Shown: piece after piece, positions 2,392-11,135 of the stretch | Layout: each line of letters opens with the position of its first letter | Position numbering within the stretch: the stretch's first letter is position 1 | NCBI GenBank assembly: GCA_016882415.1 | Contig: VGQL01000011.1 | Coordinates: 1-35,306 of the forward strand | Direction of reading: 5' to 3' | Length of the DNA stretch: 35,306 nt | From: Cyanobacteria bacterium M_DeepCast_200m_mx_001 | GTDB lineage: Bacteria > Cyanobacteriota > Cyanobacteriia > PCC-6307 > Cyanobiaceae | The notes under the pieces: generated by a model | Seen by the model: only the letters and a program-made list of their open reading frames with translations | Databases searched by the model: none | What the model was told of the DNA's origin: nothing | Translations under genes and position numbers: made by a program

Positions 2392-2889
2392 ATGGCTCCG
2401 GACACCCCAGCGCTGTCCCACCTCAACGGCCGCGGTGAGGTGCACATGGTCGAGGTGGGCGATCGTCCCCTCACCCGCCGTGAGGCCCGGGCAGAAGGCA
2501 CCATCCGCATGGCGCCGGAGGTGCTGGCCCTGGTGCTGGAGGGGAAGGCCCCCAAAGGCGATGTGCTCGCCGTGGCGCGTGTCGCCGCCATCCAGGGGGC
2601 CAAACGCACCTCTGAGTTGATTCCCCTCTGCCATCCGATCGCCCTCAGCGGTGTGGAGGTGGAGATCGGCCCCACCGCCGATGGGGCTGGTCTGCGGCTT
2701 GAGGCCTGTGCCCGCACCACCGGCAGCACCGGCGTGGAAATGGAAGCGCTCACCGCCGTGCAGGTGGGCCTGCTCACCCTCTACGACATGCTCAAATCCG
2801 CCGACCCCGCCATGACGATTGAGGCTGTTCGCCTGCTGAGCAAGAGCGGCGGGCGCCATGGCACCTGGCAGCGCGCGGCAGAGGCGTGA
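2392..2889 (+). CDS. moaC: Cyclic pyranopterin monophosphate synthase MoaC
   Basis: MoaC turns the 3',8-cyclo-GTP made by MoaA into cyclic pyranopterin monophosphate, the first stable intermediate of molybdenum cofactor synthesis. The 165-residue length fits the family. Diagnostic segments are [18 protein letters not shown] near residues 19-36, [20 protein letters not shown] with LIPLCHPI (55-83), EMEALTAV (117-123) and YDMLKSAD (131-138). The expected catalytic residues Lys55, His81, Asp132 and Lys135 are present, each four higher than in E. coli MoaC. The ATG at 2392 was preferred over an in-frame TTG at 2335 because homology begins a few residues after it. The stop codon overlaps the ATG of moeA (TGATG), so the two are translationally coupled. 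Confidence 0.95.
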
Positions 2890-4124
2890 TGGCGGAGCCC
2901 TACGGCCGAGAAGGGCTGCCGCTGGAGCAAGCCCGCACTCAGATCCTGGAGGCCCTGGTGCCGCTCGGGCGTACGGACACCCTGCCGCTCAGCCAGGCCC
3001 TGGGCCGCACCACTGCGGCCGCGGTGTTGGCTACGGCGGCGGTGCCCGGATTCCGGGCCTCGATCATGGATGGCTACGCCATCGCCGGTGATGCGCAGCC
3101 GCAGCCGGGCGCGCAGTGGGCCCTGGTGGGCTGTTCCGCGGCGGGTGCCCCCTACGGCGCAGCCCTGGAGCCGGGTCAGGCGGTGCGCATCCTTACCGGT
3201 GCAGTGGTGCCTCAGGGGAGTGGGCGGGTGCTGCCCCAGGAGTTGGTGGCGGTGGCGGGCACGCGGCTTGAGCTGGTGCAGCCCTGCGGGGCTAACCCCT
3301 GGATCCGTCAGCCCACGGAGGAGGCGGAGCCGGGCCAGCAGCTGGTGCCCGCGGGGCAGCGTTTGGGGGTGGCCGATCTGGGCCGTCTGGCGGGCTGTGG
3401 GGTGCAAACGCTGTCGCTCACGCGCCGGCCACGGCTGGGGTTGTTGATCAGTGGCGATGAATTGCTGCCGCCGGGTCAGCCCCGCGGCCCCGGGCAGATC
3501 TGGGAGAGCAACGCCACCCTGCTGACGGCCTTGCTGGGCCAACTGGGCTATGGGGTTGCCGATCAGCGGGTGGTGGCCGACCAACCGGAGCCGTTGCGCC
3601 TGGCCCTGCGCGAACTGGCGGAGTCGTGCGATGTGGTGGTGAGCACGGGCGGCGTTTCCGCCGGCGATAGCGATTGGATCCGGCCCCTAGTGGCGGAGCT
3701 GGGGGAGGTGTGCTTCTGGAAGCTGTTCCTCAAGCCGGGGCGACCCTTCGCCTGGGGGCAGGTGGCGGGCACGCCATTTTTTGGTTTGCCCGGCAATCCT
3801 GTGGCTGCCGCCATCACGGCGCTGCAGCTGCTCTGGCCGGCGCTGCAGCGGCTGGAGGGTGCTGAGATTCAGCTGCTGCCACGGCTCAAGGTGCGTCTAG
3901 ATACGCCCCTGAAGCGGGGCTCCGGACGTCCGGAGCTCGCCCGGGCCCGGATGCAGGTGGGCCCGGATGGTGCGGTCTTGGCCCGGGTGGAGGGCAGTCA
4001 GGCTTCAGCCCGGATTGGATCGCTGCAGGGGGCTGATCTGCTGCTGGAGATCCCGGCCGACCAGGGCGACCTGGAGACCGGTGCGGAGCTGTGGGCGCAG
4101 CTGCTGCGGTTGCCGCTGTTCTGA
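2889..4124 (+). CDS. moeA: Molybdopterin molybdenumtransferase MoeA
   Basis: MoeA inserts molybdate into adenylylated molybdopterin to give active Mo cofactor, the step that precedes MobA. The 411-residue length is normal. SIMDGYAI (59-65) and ILTGAVVPQGSGRV (101-114) mark the N-terminal domains; ISGDELLPPGQ, IWESNATLL and STGGVSAGDSDW (252-263) mark the MogA-like catalytic domain, with the conserved Asp in GGVSAGD. KPGRPFAWG and FFGLPGNPVAA (298-308) follow. The ATG at 2889 overlaps the moaC stop by one base; a GTG three bases upstream is also possible. Together with moaC it makes a two-gene plus-strand operon. It ends against moaE at a palindromic junction. Confidence 0.95.
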   Translation: MAEPYGREGLPLEQARTQILEALVPLGRTDTLPLSQALGRTTAAAVLATAAVPGFRASIMDGYAIAGDAQPQPGAQWALVGCSAAGAPYGAALEPGQAVRILTGAVVPQGSGRVLPQELVAVAGTRLELVQPCGANPWIRQPTEEAEPGQQLVPAGQRLGVADLGRLAGCGVQTLSLTRRPRLGLLISGDELLPPGQPRGPGQIWESNATLLTALLGQLGYGVADQRVVADQPEPLRLALRELAESCDVVVSTGGVSAGDSDWIRPLVAELGEVCFWKLFLKPGRPFAWGQVAGTPFFGLPGNPVAAAITALQLLWPALQRLEGAEIQLLPRLKVRLDTPLKRGSGRPELARARMQVGPDGAVLARVEGSQASARIGSLQGADLLLEIPADQGDLETGAELWAQLLRLPLF

Positions 4125-4142
4125 GGGGGATCGATCCCCTCA
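4122..4142. terminator. Palindromic junction between moeA and moaE stops
   Basis: The facing stop codons are the outer ends of an inverted repeat: TGAGGGG (4122-4128) pairs with CCCCTCA (4136-4142) around a 7-base centre that is itself part of a 14-base palindrome (4126-4139, centre ATCGAT). The repeat fills the whole gap between the two convergent genes. It lacks flanking T runs, so it is a bidirectional hairpin that may stop or protect both transcripts rather than a classical intrinsic terminator. Confidence 0.5.
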
Positions 4143-4604
4143 CCAGGGGGTGTTGCCGGTGATCCATTGGCCGTTGCCATCGGCCCGCCATTCCCGCTTC
4201 CAGAACGGCGCCTCATGTTTCAGGGCCTCGAGCAGCTCCTGGCAGCAGCGCTGGGCGGGGCCGCGGCGGTCGGCGGCGATGGCTACCAGCACGATCGCTT
4301 CGCCGGGCAGCACGCGGCCGATGCGGTGCAGGATCAGGCAGCGCTCGACCCCATGGCGCTGGCTGCAGGCGGTGGCGAGGGCGTTCAGTTGCCGCTCGGT
4401 CATGCCCGGGTAGTGCTCGAGCTCGAGGGCGGTGAGCGCTGCCCCATCACTGGCCTGGGCGCGCACGCGCCCGATGAACAGGGCTTCCGCAGCGGCGGTC
4501 CCGGGCTCAGCGTTGCTGTGCTGTTGCTGCCATTGCTCCAGCCGCTTCAGGGGCTCGAAACGCTTGCTCAGCAGCTCAATCTGGAGGTGCGGGGGGTGCT
4601 GCAT
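4140..4604 (-). CDS. moaE: Molybdopterin synthase large subunit MoaE
   Basis: MoaE, with thiocarboxylated MoaD, adds two sulfurs to cyclic pyranopterin monophosphate to make molybdopterin. The 154-residue protein has EALFIGRVRAQ, LELEHYPGMTE, RIGRVLPGEAIVLVAIAADRR and the C-terminal EAPFWKRE, which contains the lysine region that receives the MoaD tail. The ATG complementary to 4602-4604 was chosen because it overlaps the moaD stop by one base (TGATG on the minus strand) and starts the family homology; the longer open frame upstream lies inside moaD. moaD-moaE form a small minus-strand operon pointing into moeA. Confidence 0.93.
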   Translation of the reverse strand: MQHPPHLQIELLSKRFEPLKRLEQWQQQHSNAEPGTAAAEALFIGRVRAQASDGAALTALELEHYPGMTERQLNALATACSQRHGVERCLILHRIGRVLPGEAIVLVAIAADRRGPAQRCCQELLEALKHEAPFWKREWRADGNGQWITGNTPW

Positions 4605-4852
4605 CAGCCGCCGCTGATCGGAGGCAGAAACGCCAATTCGTCCCCGGCCTGGAGGGGTTGATCCGCCGCTGCGAAGGTGTGGTTGATCGCGATGCGCACG
4701 GTCAGCAGATCCCCCCCAAGCCGCAGCTGCTGCCACACCGCCTCGGGGCTGCGGGCCTGCTCGATCGACCACTCCTGTTCACCCCAGCCGGCCGCTTCCC
4801 GCAGCCCGGCAAACAGGCGCACGCGGATCGTGGCGGAATCAGGCCCTGTCAT
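4604..4852 (-). CDS. moaD: Molybdopterin synthase sulfur carrier MoaD
   Basis: A ubiquitin-fold sulfur carrier of 82 residues. It contains RVRLFAGLREAAG, the start of the beta-grasp fold, and ends in LPPISGG; the terminal Gly-Gly is the site of adenylation and thiocarboxylation. The activating enzyme (MoeB type) is not in this window. The start at 4852 gives the normal length; its ATG overlaps the ATG annotated for divergent moaB by two bases, so either one start is shifted or the two promoters lie inside the neighbouring coding regions. Confidence 0.92.
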   Translation of the reverse strand: MTGPDSATIRVRLFAGLREAAGWGEQEWSIEQARSPEAVWQQLRLGGDLLTVRIAINHTFAAADQPLQAGDELAFLPPISGG

Positions 4853-5435
4853 GGCAGCAACGCTAACCAGCAGGAGCGCAGCTGTTTTGAGAGCATGCCT
4901 AGACGCCGTTGTCCTGGAGGCGCCCGCCTTGGCCCTCAGCATCGCCCTGCTGACTGTGTCCGACACCCGGACCCTGGCGGAGGACCGCTCCGGGGATGCC
5001 CTCCAGCTCCGGCTGGAGGCCGCTGGACACCGGCTGGCGGAGCGTGGTCTCGTGCCCGACAACCGCTATCGAATCCGGGCCGAGCTCAGCCGCTGGATCG
5101 CCGACCCCGCTGTGCAGGTGGTGATCAGCAGCGGCGGCACCGGCCTCACCGGCCGAGACGGAACGCCGGAAGCGGTGGCGCCTCTGTTGGATAAGACGAT
5201 CGACGGTTTTGGGGAGCTGTTTCGGGTGCTCTCCTTTGACACCATCGGCACCAGCACCCTGCAGAGTCGCTGCCTGGCGGGGGTGGCCAACGGCACGGTG
5301 ATTTTTGTGCTGCCGGGCTCCCTGGATGCGGTGGAAACCGCCTGGGATCGCTTGATTGCTGCCCAGTTGGACGTCAACACCCGCCCCTGCAACCTGGTGC
5401 AGCTGCTGCCGCGGCTGACGGAGCCGGCGGGATGA
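4851..5435 (+). CDS. moaB: Molybdenum cofactor protein MoaB/MogA family
   Basis: A MogA-fold protein that in this family adenylylates molybdopterin ahead of MoeA-dependent metal insertion. IALLTVSDTRTLAEDRSG, VQVVISSGGTGLTGRD (89-103, the molybdopterin-binding loop), LSFDTIGTSTLQSR and FVLPGSLDAVETAW match E. coli MoaB closely. With the ATG at 4851 there are about 29 residues before the first beta strand, more than the usual 12 or so, and this ATG overlaps the divergent moaD start codon; a TTG at 4887 would give a more normal N terminus and some promoter space. The 3' end overlaps the next gene by four bases (ATGA), linking moaB to the two membrane proteins that follow. Confidence 0.9.
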   Translation: MAATLTSRSAAVLRACLDAVVLEAPALALSIALLTVSDTRTLAEDRSGDALQLRLEAAGHRLAERGLVPDNRYRIRAELSRWIADPAVQVVISSGGTGLTGRDGTPEAVAPLLDKTIDGFGELFRVLSFDTIGTSTLQSRCLAGVANGTVIFVLPGSLDAVETAWDRLIAAQLDVNTRPCNLVQLLPRLTEPAG

Positions 5436-5965
5436 GCCCGGTGCGGCGCCTGCATCAGCTGGTCCGACGTGAACGGCGCCGCGGTCGCCGTTATCAGCCG
5501 CGCTTTGCGCTGTCGCAAATTGCCGTGACCAGCCTCGGGGCGTTGTGCGCCGTGGTGCTGCTGGCCCTGTTCAGTCTCTGGAGCCAACACCCGTTGATCG
5601 TGGCGCCCCTGGGGGCCTCCTGCGTCTTGCTGTTTGGTTACCCCGCCAGCCCCCTGGCCCAGCCCCGCAATCTCCTGCTCGGCAATGGTCTGGGGGCTTT
5701 GGTCGGCATGGCCCTGCTGGCCTGGATCGGCCAGGGGCCTCTGTCATTGGCCCTGGCTGTTGCCATCACCATTCTTCTGGGCCAACAGCTGCGCTGCCTG
5801 CATCCACCGGCTGGGGGTTTGGCGTTTTTGGTGGTGTATCTGGGGGTGCCCTGGGGATTTTTGGTGTTTCCGGTGCTGAGCGGCTCGCTGCTGCTCGTGC
5901 TGCTGGCCTGGGGCTTCAGCCGTTGGGTGCCGGGGGCGGCCACCTACCCACGCCATTGGTTGTGA
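5432..5965 (+). CDS. HPP-family membrane protein, candidate nitrite transporter
   Basis: A 177-residue integral membrane protein with a basic N-terminal tail (VRRERRRGRRY) and about four to five membrane segments. HPLIVAPLGASCVLLFGYP (53-71), AQPRNLLLGN and CLHPPAGGLAFL, with the name-giving His-Pro-Pro at 124-126, identify the HPP family. Cyanobacterial and chloroplast members of this family have been reported to carry nitrite, which fits a locus full of nitrate assimilation genes; here that is inference. The ATG overlaps the moaB stop (ATGA), and its own stop overlaps the next gene by one base, so moaB, this gene and the TauE/SafE gene look like one transcript. Confidence 0.85.
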   Translation: MSPVRRLHQLVRRERRRGRRYQPRFALSQIAVTSLGALCAVVLLALFSLWSQHPLIVAPLGASCVLLFGYPASPLAQPRNLLLGNGLGALVGMALLAWIGQGPLSLALAVAITILLGQQLRCLHPPAGGLAFLVVYLGVPWGFLVFPVLSGSLLLVLLAWGFSRWVPGAATYPRHWL

Positions 5966-6714
5966 TGGCGTTGTTGCCGTTGGCCATGGCCTGTGTGGCC
6001 TTTCTGTATGCCTCGGTGGGCCATGCCGGCGCTTCGGGCTACATCGCGGTGTTGGCGTTGGCGGGCTGGTCGCCGGCCCTGATCAAGCCGGCGGCGCTGG
6101 TGCTGAATGCTTTGGTGGCCAGCCTGGGTTGTTGGAATTTTCTGCGGGCTGGCCACTTCCCCGCGCGCCGGTTTGTGGCCGTGTATGCCCTGGCGGTGCC
6201 TTTGGCCTTTGTCGGGGGTTGGCTCCAGATTCCCGGACCCTGGTTTGAACGGTTGGTGGGGCTGGTGTTGTGGGGATCCGCCTGGCGATTGGGCCAGACC
6301 CCCCACGATCCCCCCAACCTGCGCCCCGCCTCGGTGCCGGCGTTGCTGAGTGTCGGCGGTGGTTTGGGTCTGCTGGCCGGGCTGACCGGCACCGGCGGTG
6401 GTGTCTTCCTCACGCCTTGGTTGCTGACGGCGCGGTGGTGCACCACCCGCCAGGCGGCGGCGGTGTCTGTTCTGTTCATCCTGCTGAATTCCTTGGCCGG
6501 GCTGGCCGGTCTGCTATGGGCACGGCCCAGGGCCCTTGATCCGCTGTCGGGCGAGCCGTTGCTGCTGTGGATCGCCCCAGCCGTGTTGGTGGCTGGTGCC
6601 CTGGGATCGCGGCTGGGGAGTCGCCATTGGCCCGTGGCTTGGATTCGCCGAGCCTTGGCGCTGGTGTTGTTGTTGGCTGGCGGCAAGTTGCTGGGGCTGC
6701 ACCCACTGCGCTGA
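5965..6714 (+). CDS. TauE/SafE-family sulfite/anion membrane permease
   Basis: A 249-residue membrane protein with about eight predicted segments in two similar halves. The first half has FLYASVGHAGASGYIAVLAL and the second SVGGGLGLLAGLTGTGGGVFL, the paired Gly-rich repeats typical of TauE/SafE (formerly DUF81). Members are linked to export or import of sulfite, sulfoacetate and other small anions; substrate cannot be assigned. The ATG at 5965 overlaps the HPP gene stop (TGATG), so it was preferred to upstream in-frame positions that lie inside the HPP gene. Its 3' end faces moaA across an inverted repeat that includes both stop codons. A role in anion balance tied to the HPP protein is a guess from coupling. 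Confidence 0.85.
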   Translation: MALLPLAMACVAFLYASVGHAGASGYIAVLALAGWSPALIKPAALVLNALVASLGCWNFLRAGHFPARRFVAVYALAVPLAFVGGWLQIPGPWFERLVGLVLWGSAWRLGQTPHDPPNLRPASVPALLSVGGGLGLLAGLTGTGGGVFLTPWLLTARWCTTRQAAAVSVLFILLNSLAGLAGLLWARPRALDPLSGEPLLLWIAPAVLVAGALGSRLGSRHWPVAWIRRALALVLLLAGGKLLGLHPLR

Positions 6715-6735
6715 GGCTGGGTTCCCGTCCTCAGC
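6710..6735. terminator. Inverted repeat spanning TauE/SafE and moaA stops
   Basis: GCTGAGG (6710-6716) and CCTCAGC (6729-6735) make a perfect 7-bp stem with a 12-base loop. The TGA of the plus-strand gene lies in one arm and the moaA stop (complement of TCA) in the other. The design is the same as at the moeA/moaE and narB/regulator junctions. No T run follows on either side. Confidence 0.45.
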
Positions 6736-7792
6736 CCCCGAGGTAGGCCATCTCCGCATGGCTGGGGCGCTCACGCTCCAGCTGGGCTTGGCTTCTGTCC
6801 TCGCTGTAGCGGTCGTGTCGCCGTTGCCAGAGCGCGGCGAGGCCCTGGGTCAGGTGTGTCTGGGTGCCGGCTGCGGCCAGCCAAGGTTTGAGGTCGATGC
6901 CGCTGCCCGGATGGGCAAACAGGCAGGTGTAGGCGATGCCATCAGCGGTGACCCGCAGGCGGTTGCAATCTCCGCAGAACGGCTCGCTGACGGAGGCCAC
7001 CATCGCCAGCAGGCCGCCTCCATCCCCGTAACGCCATCGGCGGGCGGTGCCACCGGTGGCCCGGCCCAGGGGCTGCAGGGGCCAGCGGTCACCGATGCGC
7101 TGCAGCAGTTCCGCTGCGGGCACCACCGCCTCCGGCCGCCAACCATTGCGGTTGCCCACATCCATGTATTCGATCAGCCTCAGCTCCAGGCCCCGTTCAC
7201 GGGTCAGCTCCGCCAGCGGCAGGAGTTGATCGTCGTTGAGGCCCCGTTGGATGACGGCATTGAGTTTCAGCTCGCCCGCCGCTGGATCAAAGCCGGCCTC
7301 GCTGGCGTGGTCGATGGCCGCCAGCACCGACGCCAGGGCCCGCTCGCCGGCGTTGGCATCGGCCAGGCCAGCCATGCGGGCCACGCTGGGGCCATCGGCG
7401 CCGTCGAGACTGAGGGTGATCCGATCGAGGCCGGCTTGGCGCAGGGCTCGGGCTCGGGTGGCGGTGAGCAGGGTGCCGTTGCTGGTGAGGGCGACCTCCC
7501 GCAGGCCCCGCTTCCGCAGGGGCTGAACCGCCTTCACCAGGGCTTCCAGCTCGGGGTGGAGCAGTGGTTCGCCCCCCGTGAGCCGCAGGCTGCGAACGCC
7601 GAGCTCCACCGCCGCTGCCACCACCTGCAGCCGCTGCGGGAGGCTCAGCAGATCCGCCGGCTCCTGCCCATCCGGCAGGCAATAGGGGCAGGCCAGGTTG
7701 CAGCGGGCCGTCAGCGAGAGCCGCAGCACGCCGAGGGGTCGCTGAAGCTGGTCGCGGGGGTGTTCGACAGCCGGCGAAGTCGCAGACCCCAG
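6731..7792 (-). CDS. moaA: GTP 3',8-cyclase MoaA (start unresolved)
   Basis: A radical SAM enzyme that with two 4Fe-4S clusters converts GTP to 3',8-cyclo-GTP. The N-terminal cluster motif is RCNLACPYCLPDG, then LRLTGGEPLL and ITLSLDG; the C-terminal cluster motif is EPFCGDCNRLRVTADG followed by YTCLF (C-x2-C-x13-C). The protein ends in Gly-Gly, which MoaA needs for activity. The start is a problem: family homology begins near DQLQRPLGVLRLSL, but in this frame no ATG, GTG or TTG occurs between that point and deep inside mobA (the next upstream ones are near 8005-8050). The coordinate given uses a CTG at 7792. A GTG at 7811, nine bases after the last base of the mobA stop, is well placed but in another frame; one extra base in the G run 7756-7760 would explain it. 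A GTG at 7729 would remove conserved residues. Confidence 0.85.
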   Translation of the reverse strand: MGSATSPAVEHPRDQLQRPLGVLRLSLTARCNLACPYCLPDGQEPADLLSLPQRLQVVAAAVELGVRSLRLTGGEPLLHPELEALVKAVQPLRKRGLREVALTSNGTLLTATRARALRQAGLDRITLSLDGADGPSVARMAGLADANAGERALASVLAAIDHASEAGFDPAAGELKLNAVIQRGLNDDQLLPLAELTRERGLELRLIEYMDVGNRNGWRPEAVVPAAELLQRIGDRWPLQPLGRATGGTARRWRYGDGGGLLAMVASVSEPFCGDCNRLRVTADGIAYTCLFAHPGSGIDLKPWLAAAGTQTHLTQGLAALWQRRHDRYSEDRSQAQLERERPSHAEMAYLGG

Positions 7793-7817
7793 TCTGCTGT
7801 TGCCGCAACACGGGGGC

Positions 7818-8435
7818 TCAGAGCTGGTCAGGTCGGTTGATGTTGTGCAAGAGATCCGCCGTGAAGGGCACGTCGCTGCACGGGATGTTGTCCAGCCAGG
7901 ATTGAAGCCGCCGCTCCCCTCGCTGGATGCAGCTGGCCAGGGAGTCCGCCAGCCCGGCCAGGCTCGGGTAGACCCCCAGCAGGGGTTGGCGTCGCTGCCC
8001 GTCATGGGCCACATGGATTTGCTTCGGCTCCTCCGCGGCCGCGGCCACAAGCCCGTTCAGAACGACCGGCTGCAGGTGTGGCATGTCCACCGGGCACACC
8101 AACAGCCGTTGCTGCGGATGACGTTCCATCAGCCGATGCAGGGCCAGCAGTGGCCCCTCCCAAGGGGGTGGCTCGGTGAGGATTTCCAGCGCCGGCAAGT
8201 TCATCGCCTGGGCGAGCCTTCCATGCTCCGGCCAGCGGCTGAGCAGGGTGATGGGCTGCCGTTGTGCCGCCAGCAGCCGCAGGGTGCGTTCCAGCCACGT
8301 GCCCCCCTCGCGGTGGGGCAACAGCGCCTTGTCGGATCCCATGCGGAGGCTGGCACCACCACTGAGCAGGCAGCACCGCAGGGGGGCGCTGGGCTGTTGT
8401 TCAGGCACGGGCAGCCGGTAGCAACGGATGCCCAT
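7818..8435 (-). CDS. mobA: Molybdenum cofactor guanylyltransferase MobA
   Basis: MobA transfers GMP from GTP to Mo-molybdopterin to form the MGD cofactor needed by NarB. The protein is 206 residues. The nucleotide-binding signature [17 protein letters not shown] lies near residues 23-39, followed by [20 protein letters not shown] (metal-binding Asp) and QPLLGVYP. It ends in [11 protein letters not shown], matching the usual NxNTPEDL-type tail. The ATG complementary to 8433-8435 was chosen; a GTG at 8468 would add 11 residues without homology. mobA is upstream of moaA on the same strand and divergent from cynS, with a 56-base gap. Confidence 0.9.
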
Positions 8436-8491
8436 GGGGCCGCCTTGTATCCATAGGGTCCCGCCCACGTTGCAGCCCTGCCCGAAGGCTC

Positions 8492-8947
8492 ATGACCCTT
8501 TCCCCCCTGGCTTCCACTCTGCTTGCGGCCAAGCGTCGCATGGGCCTCAGCTTTGCGGAGTTGGGATCTCGTCTCGGGGTGGATGAGGTGTGGGTGGCCA
8601 GCTTGATCCATGGGCAGGCCACGGCCACCGCCGCAGAGGCCTCCAGCTTGCTGGAGGCCCTGGCCATTCCTGCTGCGGAGCAGCCCCCCCTGCTGCACCA
8701 ACTCAGCACCTATCCCGTGAAGGGAGCGCTGGATCCGGTGATTCCCACCGACCCGCTCCTCTATCGCTTCTACGAGATCCTCCAGGTGTATGGCTTGCCC
8801 TTAAAGGATGTGATTCAGGAGAAGTTCGGCGACGGCATCATGTCTGCCATCGATTTCACCCTCACCGTGGATCGCCAGGAGGATGCCAAGGGCGACCGGG
8901 TTGTGGTGACGATGAATGGCAAGTTTTTGCCCTATCGCAAATGGTGA
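8492..8947 (+). CDS. cynS: Cyanate hydratase (cyanase)
   Basis: Cyanase decomposes cyanate with bicarbonate to ammonia and carbon dioxide, giving a nitrogen source and detoxifying cyanate. The 151-residue protein has an N-terminal helix-turn-helix-like domain ([21 protein letters not shown]) and the C-terminal catalytic domain. [17 protein letters not shown] and [12 protein letters not shown] contain the catalytic Arg92, Glu95 and Ser118, equivalent to Arg96, Glu99 and Ser122 of E. coli. No cyanate ABC transporter (cynABD) or cynR is nearby. It lies 55 bases upstream of narB on the same strand with no clear promoter between them, so the two are probably co-transcribed. Confidence 0.95.
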
Positions 8948-9002
8948 AGGCGCCACAGCTGCCCTCGCTACGGTGATGTGGTCGACCTGCTGAGGCGTTT
9001 CC

Positions 9003-11135
9003 TTGGCTGCCCCAGACGTAGAGAGTGCCAAGGCCCAGTGCCCCTATTGCGGGGTGGGCTGTGGCCTGGAGCTGAAGCCACCGGCGGATCCCGCCGATCC
9101 CCAGTGGTCGGTGCGTGGTGATCGGGATCACCCTTCCTCCTTGGGGCAGGTGTGCATCAAGGGGGCCACCGTTGGGGAAACCCTGCACCACAACCGGCTC
9201 ACCACGCCGCAATGGCGCCCGAGTCTGGATCAACCCTTCGAGGCGATCAGCTGGGACCGTGCCTTCGAGCTGTTGGTGGCCCAGATCCGCACCACCCTGG
9301 AGCAGCGCGGGCCGCAGGGGCTGGCCATCTATGGATCGGGCCAGTTCCTCAGCGAGGACTACTACGTTGCCAACAAGCTGCTCAAGGGGGCGCTGGGCAG
9401 CAACAACTTCGATGCCAACTCACGGCTGTGCATGAGTTCGGCGGTGGCCGGCTATGCCCGCAGCCTTGGCTCCGATGGCCCCCCCTGCTGCTACGACGAC
9501 CTGGATCTCGCTGATCTGGTGCTGCTGATCGGCACCAATACGGCCGATTGCCATCCGGTGTTGTTTCAGCGGCTGATCAAGCGCAAGCGCAAGCAGCCGG
9601 AAGGGCTGCGGCTGGTGGTGGCCGATCCCCGGGCCACCGCCACCGCGGATGCGGCCGATCTGCACCTGGCGATCCGCCCCGGCACCGATCTGGTGCTGTT
9701 GCATGGCCTGGGCCATCTGCTGTTGGAGCAGCAGGCGCTGAATCAGCCCTACATCGCCGCCCATACCGAGGGATATGCCGAGCTGGAGGCGCTCTGGCGG
9801 CTGTGGACGCCGCAGCGGGTGTGTGATCTTTGCGGCATCGCCGAGGCGGATCTCCGCCAGTTGGCCCAGTGGTGGGCTGAGGCGGCGGGGGTGCTCAGCC
9901 TTTGGTCGATGGGGGTGAACCAGAGCCGCGAAGGCACTGCCACGGTGAGCGGCATCATCAACGTGCATCTGGCCACCGGCCAGATCGGCCGCCCTGGCGC
10001 CGGACCGTTTTCGCTCACCGGACAACCCAATGCCATGGGGGGCCGTGAGGTGGGTGGCCTGGCCCAGCTGCTGCCGGGCTATCGCTTTGTGGCGGATCCC
10101 GAGCACCGCGCTGCGGTGGAACGCCACTGGGGCTTGGCCCCGGGATCGATTTCCGCTGAGAAGGGGCTGGCCGTGTGGGAGCAGATCGAGGCGATGGAGC
10201 GCGGCGAGCTGGGGCTGTGGTGGGTGGCGGCCACCAACCCGCTGGTGAGCATGCCCTGGCTGGATCGCGTACGGGCGGCGGCGGCCCACTGCCCCTTCGT
10301 GGTGCTCAGTGAGGCCTACGCCGGTACGGAAACCGCGGCCCTGGCCCATCTTGTGCTGCCAGCGGCGCAATGGAGTGAAAAGGCCGGCGTGATGACCAAT
10401 TCCGAGCGGCGGGTCACCCTCTGTCCCGCGTTCCGTAATCCCCCCGGTGAGGCGCGCGCCGATTGGGCGATCTTCGCCGAGCTGGGGCGTCGCCTTGGGT
10501 TCGTGGAGCAGTTCAGCTATGGCTCCGCCGCCGAGGTGTATGCGGAGCTGGTGGGGCTCACCGCCGGCCGGGTGTGTGATCTCAGCGGGCTCAGCCATGC
10601 GCTGTTGGCGCAGCACGGCCCCCAGCAGTGGCCCTTCCCCGCCGGCACTGCACCCGGTGGAGGGGCGCCGCGGCTTTACGGCGACCACCACTACCCCACC
10701 CCCAGCGGTCGGGCCCGCTTGCTGGCGGATGCTCCGATGGGCCTGGCGGAACCCCCCGATGACGCCTACCCCCTGGTGCTCACCGTGGGTCGGTATCTCG
10801 GCCACTGGCACACCATGACCCGCACCGTGCATGTGGCCCGGGTGCTCAAGCAGTTCCCGGAGGCGTTGCTCGAGGTGAACCCCGCAGATGCCGAGCGCCA
10901 TGGCTTGGTGGACGGCACCTTGGCGGAGGTCACTTCTCGGCGCGGCAGCCTGCGGGCGCGGGTGCAGGTGAGCGACCGCATCCGCTGCGGCACCGTGTTT
11001 CTGCCCATGCACTGGGGGGCCAGCCAGCCCCAACCCTGTGAGGCCAATCGGCTGATGCATGAGCAGGCGGATGCCATCTCCAAACAGCCCGAGCTGAAGG
11101 CGGCAGCGGTGCGCCTGGCCCCTCTGCCCGCCTGA
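9003..11135 (+). CDS. narB: Ferredoxin-nitrate reductase NarB
   Basis: NarB reduces nitrate to nitrite in the cytoplasm using photosynthetically reduced ferredoxin. The 710-residue protein is the usual length. The N terminus binds a 4Fe-4S cluster through Cys13, Cys16, Cys20 and Cys51 (CPYCGVGC and QVCIKG). Cys143 in SRLCMSSAVAGY is the expected molybdenum ligand of the bis-MGD cofactor. GIINVHLATGQIGRPGAGPFSLTGQPNAMGG and the C-terminal VFLPMHWG region fit the molybdopterin oxidoreductase family. The start is a TTG at 9003: an in-frame stop lies four codons upstream (8991) and no ATG or GTG occurs before the first cysteine. It converges on the Crp-type regulator, with both stops inside one hairpin. 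Confidence 0.95.
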   Translation: MAAPDVESAKAQCPYCGVGCGLELKPPADPADPQWSVRGDRDHPSSLGQVCIKGATVGETLHHNRLTTPQWRPSLDQPFEAISWDRAFELLVAQIRTTLEQRGPQGLAIYGSGQFLSEDYYVANKLLKGALGSNNFDANSRLCMSSAVAGYARSLGSDGPPCCYDDLDLADLVLLIGTNTADCHPVLFQRLIKRKRKQPEGLRLVVADPRATATADAADLHLAIRPGTDLVLLHGLGHLLLEQQALNQPYIAAHTEGYAELEALWRLWTPQRVCDLCGIAEADLRQLAQWWAEAAGVLSLWSMGVNQSREGTATVSGIINVHLATGQIGRPGAGPFSLTGQPNAMGGREVGGLAQLLPGYRFVADPEHRAAVERHWGLAPGSISAEKGLAVWEQIEAMERGELGLWWVAATNPLVSMPWLDRVRAAAAHCPFVVLSEAYAGTETAALAHLVLPAAQWSEKAGVMTNSERRVTLCPAFRNPPGEARADWAIFAELGRRLGFVEQFSYGSAAEVYAELVGLTAGRVCDLSGLSHALLAQHGPQQWPFPAGTAPGGGAPRLYGDHHYPTPSGRARLLADAPMGLAEPPDDAYPLVLTVGRYLGHWHTMTRTVHVARVLKQFPEALLEVNPADAERHGLVDGTLAEVTSRRGSLRARVQVSDRIRCGTVFLPMHWGASQPQPCEANRLMHEQADAISKQPELKAAAVRLAPLPA

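Follow-up and report, generated by a model that had tools for sequence, protein, structure and literature searches.

How does translation of moaA begin where the moaA frame offers no ordinary start codon? The question is raised by a stretch of 35,306 nucleotides from Cyanobacteria bacterium M_DeepCast_200m_mx_001 (hereafter, the window), in which moaA follows mobA on the minus strand. As a sequence-only reading of this DNA had correctly noted, ATG, GTG and TTG are absent from the moaA frame from the aspartate codon at 7753 up to an ATG at 8005, which lies inside mobA and is the nearest canonical codon upstream of a GTG in the moaA core (7729). This absence is not improbable by itself, because 22 codons would lack all three triplets with a probability of about 0.44 at the triplet frequencies of the window's minus strand; the oddity is that a gene cannot be expressed without a start. 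That reading left four options, namely an assembly error, an inactivating frameshift, a programmed slip and a CTG start, of which the comparison described below supports the last and speaks against the other three.

The moaA gene and its neighborhood

The window (contig C11) belongs to a fragmented genome of 1.18 Mb (100 contigs, 62.85% complete) that is closest, among named organisms, to cyanobacteria of the Cyanobium and Synechococcus type. On the minus strand, mobA (7818-8468, its start coordinate being that of the open reading frame list; stop TGA 7818-7820) precedes moaA, the gene for GTP 3',8-cyclase (6731-7792), whose intact frame runs from a putative start codon, CTG (7790-7792), to the stop TGA at 6731-6733 without internal stops. 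The moaA product matches TIGR02666 over profile positions 3-336 of 336 (E 3.5e-83), scoring 279.4 bits against a curated cut-off of 284.05, and Pfam Radical_SAM with 95.4 bits, above the cut-off; relatives and the gene neighborhood support the identification. Its core holds CNLACPYC, an instance of the radical-SAM CxxxCxxC motif near the N-terminus. The mobA product matches TIGR02665 (E 1.1e-24) with 87.5 bits, under the cut-off of 151.85.

Both genes form part of a compact molybdenum cofactor cluster (2446-11132) that comprises moaC, moeA, moaE, moaD, moaB, moaA and mobA together with a cyanase gene and a probable nitrate reductase gene. The moaB and cyanase matches exceed their cut-offs, and those of moeA, moaE and moaD fall below theirs. 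The molybdopterin oxidoreductase at 9003-11132 is probably the nitrate reductase NarB, all family models scoring below cut-off. Outside the cluster, a gene at 1064-2317 on the minus strand encodes an MFS transporter that resembles Tet(A)-type efflux pumps (208.4 bits against a curated cut-off of 475) and is probably an ordinary multidrug-type transporter.

The mobA-moaA junction in relatives

The moaA junctions of 253 loci were surveyed together with that of the window (254 records in all); the loci include 80 selected among the matches listed in a junction DNA search. The core motif was not found in 47 records, which gave no row and include loci other than moaA, mobA-only loci, many moaA loci from other phyla and truncated copies from genome G007. 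Records identical over 120 bases were merged, which left 145 distinct junctions, a few of them non-cyanobacterial. An ATG (130 junctions) or a GTG (11) occurs 8-30 codons before the core in 141 of the 145, well above the fraction of about 0.56 predicted for a random run of 22 codons with the composition of the window, although having such a codon is no proof that it is used. The four junctions with no ATG, GTG or TTG in this interval are those of the window, of genomes G163 and G018, and of locus L064. Ordinary picocyanobacterial moaA genes encode the same protein and follow mobA wherever the end of mobA was located in the relatives, but they start with ATG or GTG, and it is this canonical start that is missing in the window, G163 and G018.

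The fourth case is of a different kind. In L064 (L168 encodes the same protein), with the core near position 3033, mobA and moaA share a continuous frame that spans about 607 codons between stops, the next GTG lying at codon 31 before the core, and the locus represents a MobA-MoaA fusion that occurs naturally in a related cyanobacterium. It resembles the window in that moaA has no start 8-30 codons before the core; however, mobA of L064/L168 has no stop and is in one frame with moaA, whereas mobA of the window ends at a TGA and is in another frame.

The junction DNA search, in which 351 bases were compared with 400 family genomes drawn evenly from a larger group, gave matches in 155 genomes. 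Among the matches listed, G163 was the only one besides the window to cover the whole junction (83% DNA identity over 351 bases), and the next matches were those of G024 (query bases 193-350) and G018 (146-350). Searches extended to the genus of G163 (6 genomes, 5 matching) and to that of G284 (42 genomes, 35 matching), many of whose genomes were already within the 400, gave no additional whole-junction match. The closest moaA by protein, that of G007 (88%), was also considered; because the G007 contig starts only within moaA (query residue 50), this copy is uninformative about the start.

In both G163 and G018, the comparison of close relatives that the sequence-only reading had proposed revealed the same moaA frame as in the window, again with no ATG, GTG or TTG. 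The moaA frame is intact, and two more genomes share both the frame and the absence of a canonical start. When the window, G163, G018 and G024 were aligned, the distance from the CTG at 7792 to the core was equal in all four, without insertion or deletion. The segment AGCAGACTGG (7789-7798, minus strand), which spans this CTG, is invariant, and the indels of the spacer, several in number, all lie upstream of it. Since the length from CTG to core is the same, the five-G run (7756-7760, plus strand), where the sequence-only reading had required the loss of one base to bring a GTG at 7811 into the moaA frame, carries no added base relative to the three other genomes; on the coding strand it reads as five C in the window, G018 and G024, and as four in G163, by a substitution and not a deletion.

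These observations bear on three of the four options. The run and the GTG (7809-7811, minus strand) that had been named as the natural start are both present, the GTG being one base off the moaA frame and in the frame of mobA, but this GTG is not conserved in the aligned relatives. An inactivating frameshift at the run is contradicted by the same frame and the same length from CTG to core in G163 and G018. A programmed slip from the GTG encounters, besides its lack of conservation, a variable spacing between the mobA stop and the core (94 nt in the window, 95 in G163, 93 in G018 and 92 in G024), so that no fixed frame relation is available for a slip to use. An assembly or sequencing error in the window, which its fragmented and incomplete genome might suggest, is hard to credit, because G163 has the same frame, the same CCG at codon -16 and the same CTG across a junction that differs at the DNA level, and G018, whose genome is 97% complete, likewise has no start, in neither case with a change of length at the run.

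The fusion in L064/L168, together with the window's moaA frame, which is open far into mobA, raises another possibility: that a MobA-MoaA fusion protein is made by recoding at the mobA stop, through a +1 shift, which in the window would occur at CTC TGA. This appears highly improbable. In G018, mobA and moaA share one frame with a TGA between them, and the four stop-to-core distances differ in such a way that three separate types of recoding would have to be invoked. Furthermore, the RNA of the window's junction is predicted to fold no better than shuffled sequences (z +1.50; 192 of 200 shuffles were at least as stable).

Candidate start codons

The conserved beginning of the protein limits where the start may lie. 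The moaA profile match begins at an aspartate (codon -9 relative to the core; 7751-7753, minus strand). This residue is shared by all 102 distinct cyanobacterial rows and by all 12 rows from other phyla, and an arginine at codon -5 (7739-7741, minus strand) is equally invariant in both sets. These counts exclude duplicates as well as rows that lie close to a sequence end or have a stop within the last 10 codons, and the rows from other phyla are the 12 of 26 loci (L093-L118) that matched the pattern. Because both residues are invariant, the start should lie above 7753.

The only ordinary in-frame start near the core is the GTG at 7727-7729 (minus strand), which lies within the conserved core GVLRLSLT, after the aspartate; the window, G163 and G018 all have it, and an automatic gene caller would be expected to select it. 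Translation from this codon would yield an N-terminally shortened MoaA and is unlikely, since both invariant residues would be removed. Immediately upstream of it, changes are mostly synonymous and the amino acids are conserved: over the 12 codons preceding the core, the four aligned genomes differ at four, all at third positions and three of them synonymously. The predicted anti-Shine-Dalgarno pairing above it is only -0.2 to +1.2 kcal/mol in the four genomes, and several relatives (e.g., L025-L028) have no counterpart of this GTG, which thus is not a general start. All pairing energies given here were calculated with a string taken as the anti-Shine-Dalgarno end of the ribosome.

Above 7753, the candidates are few. 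The moaA frame of the window contains CTG at 7792 (codon -22) and at 7831, the latter inside mobA, and the CTG at 7792 is the sole in-frame near-cognate codon between the mobA stop and the aspartate. G163, G018 and G024 carry a CTG at the corresponding position, and this is the only near-cognate codon common to the window, G163 and G018 in that interval; the others are ATC (-25) and ACG (-17) in G163 and ACG (-16) in G018. In G018, an in-frame TGA at codon -31 closes the frame above, so that CTG (-22) and ACG (-16) are the only near-cognate codons left upstream of the core. Codon -16 is ATG in G024 and in many other genomes, ACG in G018, and CCG in both G163 and the window (7772-7774, minus strand). 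Codons -22 to -13 vary more freely among the four genomes than those nearer the core, show no clear constraint at the protein level and are constant only at CTG (-22) and GTC (-14). Predicted anti-Shine-Dalgarno pairing above the CTG amounts to -10.4, -6.3 and -5.7 kcal/mol in G163, G018 and G024, respectively, and is weak (-2.0 kcal/mol) in the window.

Several points count against a CTG start, namely the bases before the CTG, the weak pairing in the window, the lack of clear protein-level constraint on codons -22 to -13, the 25-nt gap between the mobA stop and the CTG, the rarity of CUG starts, and the dN/dS values of moaA (window and G007) and cynS (window and G163) given below. The bases at -1 and -2 are G and A, and a section of PMC5622118 cites a suggested role for pyrimidines at these positions in cyanobacteria. 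The same source reports that 2 of 61,358 reconstructed AUG starts switched to CUG, and initiation complexes are described as less stable on CUG in a portion of PMC11497404. According to a passage of PMC10666635, 25 nt is long for re-initiation and the efficiency is expected to be low, although studies with coupling across longer gaps are also cited there. Re-initiation after mobA would accordingly be inefficient, and either independent initiation or tolerance of a low output must be assumed.

Nevertheless, of the four options that had been proposed, the CTG start is the best supported, the codon being in frame in all four aligned genomes, and the comparison suggests that moaA probably begins with a lineage-specific CUG at the CTG at 7792. 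The sequence of events may have been as follows. The moaA gene would have lost the ATG that relatives carry 16 codons before the core, this codon having changed to ACG, as in G018, and then to CCG. Ribosomes would now start at the CTG six codons upstream of the former ATG, presumably with a low yield.

Selection on moaA and its history

The loss of the ATG might instead have silenced the gene, leaving moaA to decay in this lineage. The moaA dN/dS is 0.317 for the window and G163, a pair in which cynS gives 0.105, and 0.41 for the window and G007, the highest of the 16 pairs computed, against 0.104-0.323 in eight pairs without the window, G163, G007, G018 and G024. On the other hand, mobA of the window and G163 has a similar value (0.294), and the 352-353 codons that the moaA match covers are free of stops in the window, in G163 and in G018. 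Each of the five genomes compared (G000, G018, G024, G007 and G163) has a single strong moaA match, any second match being weak, and further genes of the cofactor pathway have been kept along with the probable nitrate reductase: moaC is matched in four of the five, with no match in G163, and the nitrate reductase is matched in all five, in G163 only over residues 2-104, at a contig end. Decay is thus quite unlikely, and selection on moaA is purifying, perhaps relaxed, although a recent silencing is conceivable. G020, which belongs to the same genus and is 99% complete, gave neither a strong moaA match nor a mobA match at E 0.001, and may be without molybdenum cofactor synthesis.

In a moaA protein tree of 65 rows, from which G007 is absent and in which bootstrap values had not settled and 22 forks remained open, the window and G163 are sisters (98/99), and G018 is not placed beside G024. 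G163 is assigned to another genus, and its only strong moaA (L143, contig C79) is this sister of the window's; the contig also carries a partial nitrate reductase gene and cynS. This may reflect horizontal transfer or misbinning of the contig; either way, the G163 junction stays a separate sequence. Compared in blocks of 60 bases, the moaA loci of G018 and G024 (L013/L016) are identical at 55-58 bases over a stretch that starts 66 bases upstream of the core and ends about 230 bases downstream of it, and at 39-52 bases farther on, a mosaic that probably reflects recombination.

The CTG start proposed here is an uncommon case of an already known phenomenon, natural bacterial CUG starts being described as rare in a part of PMC5622118. 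As in the cases treated in that part, a conserved gene has lost its AUG, and CUG is the sole near-cognate codon that the genomes share; the differences are that the CTG lies six codons above the former ATG and that its use is deduced from comparison only. A literature search on the moaA start codon and the molybdenum cofactor in cyanobacteria returned no title on the subject, and neither CUG nor CTG occurs in the main text, as available, of PMC13339759. It is tempting to speculate, although this is doubtful, that the sole moaA of one picocyanobacterial lineage relies on a conserved CUG as a built-in low-output setting for the first step of molybdenum cofactor synthesis. To our knowledge, common gene finders do not consider CUG starts, and genes that use them would therefore be shortened or missed in annotation. 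A CUG case that is kept in more than one species, with relatives that carry ACG and ATG, would show how a gene survives the loss of its AUG.
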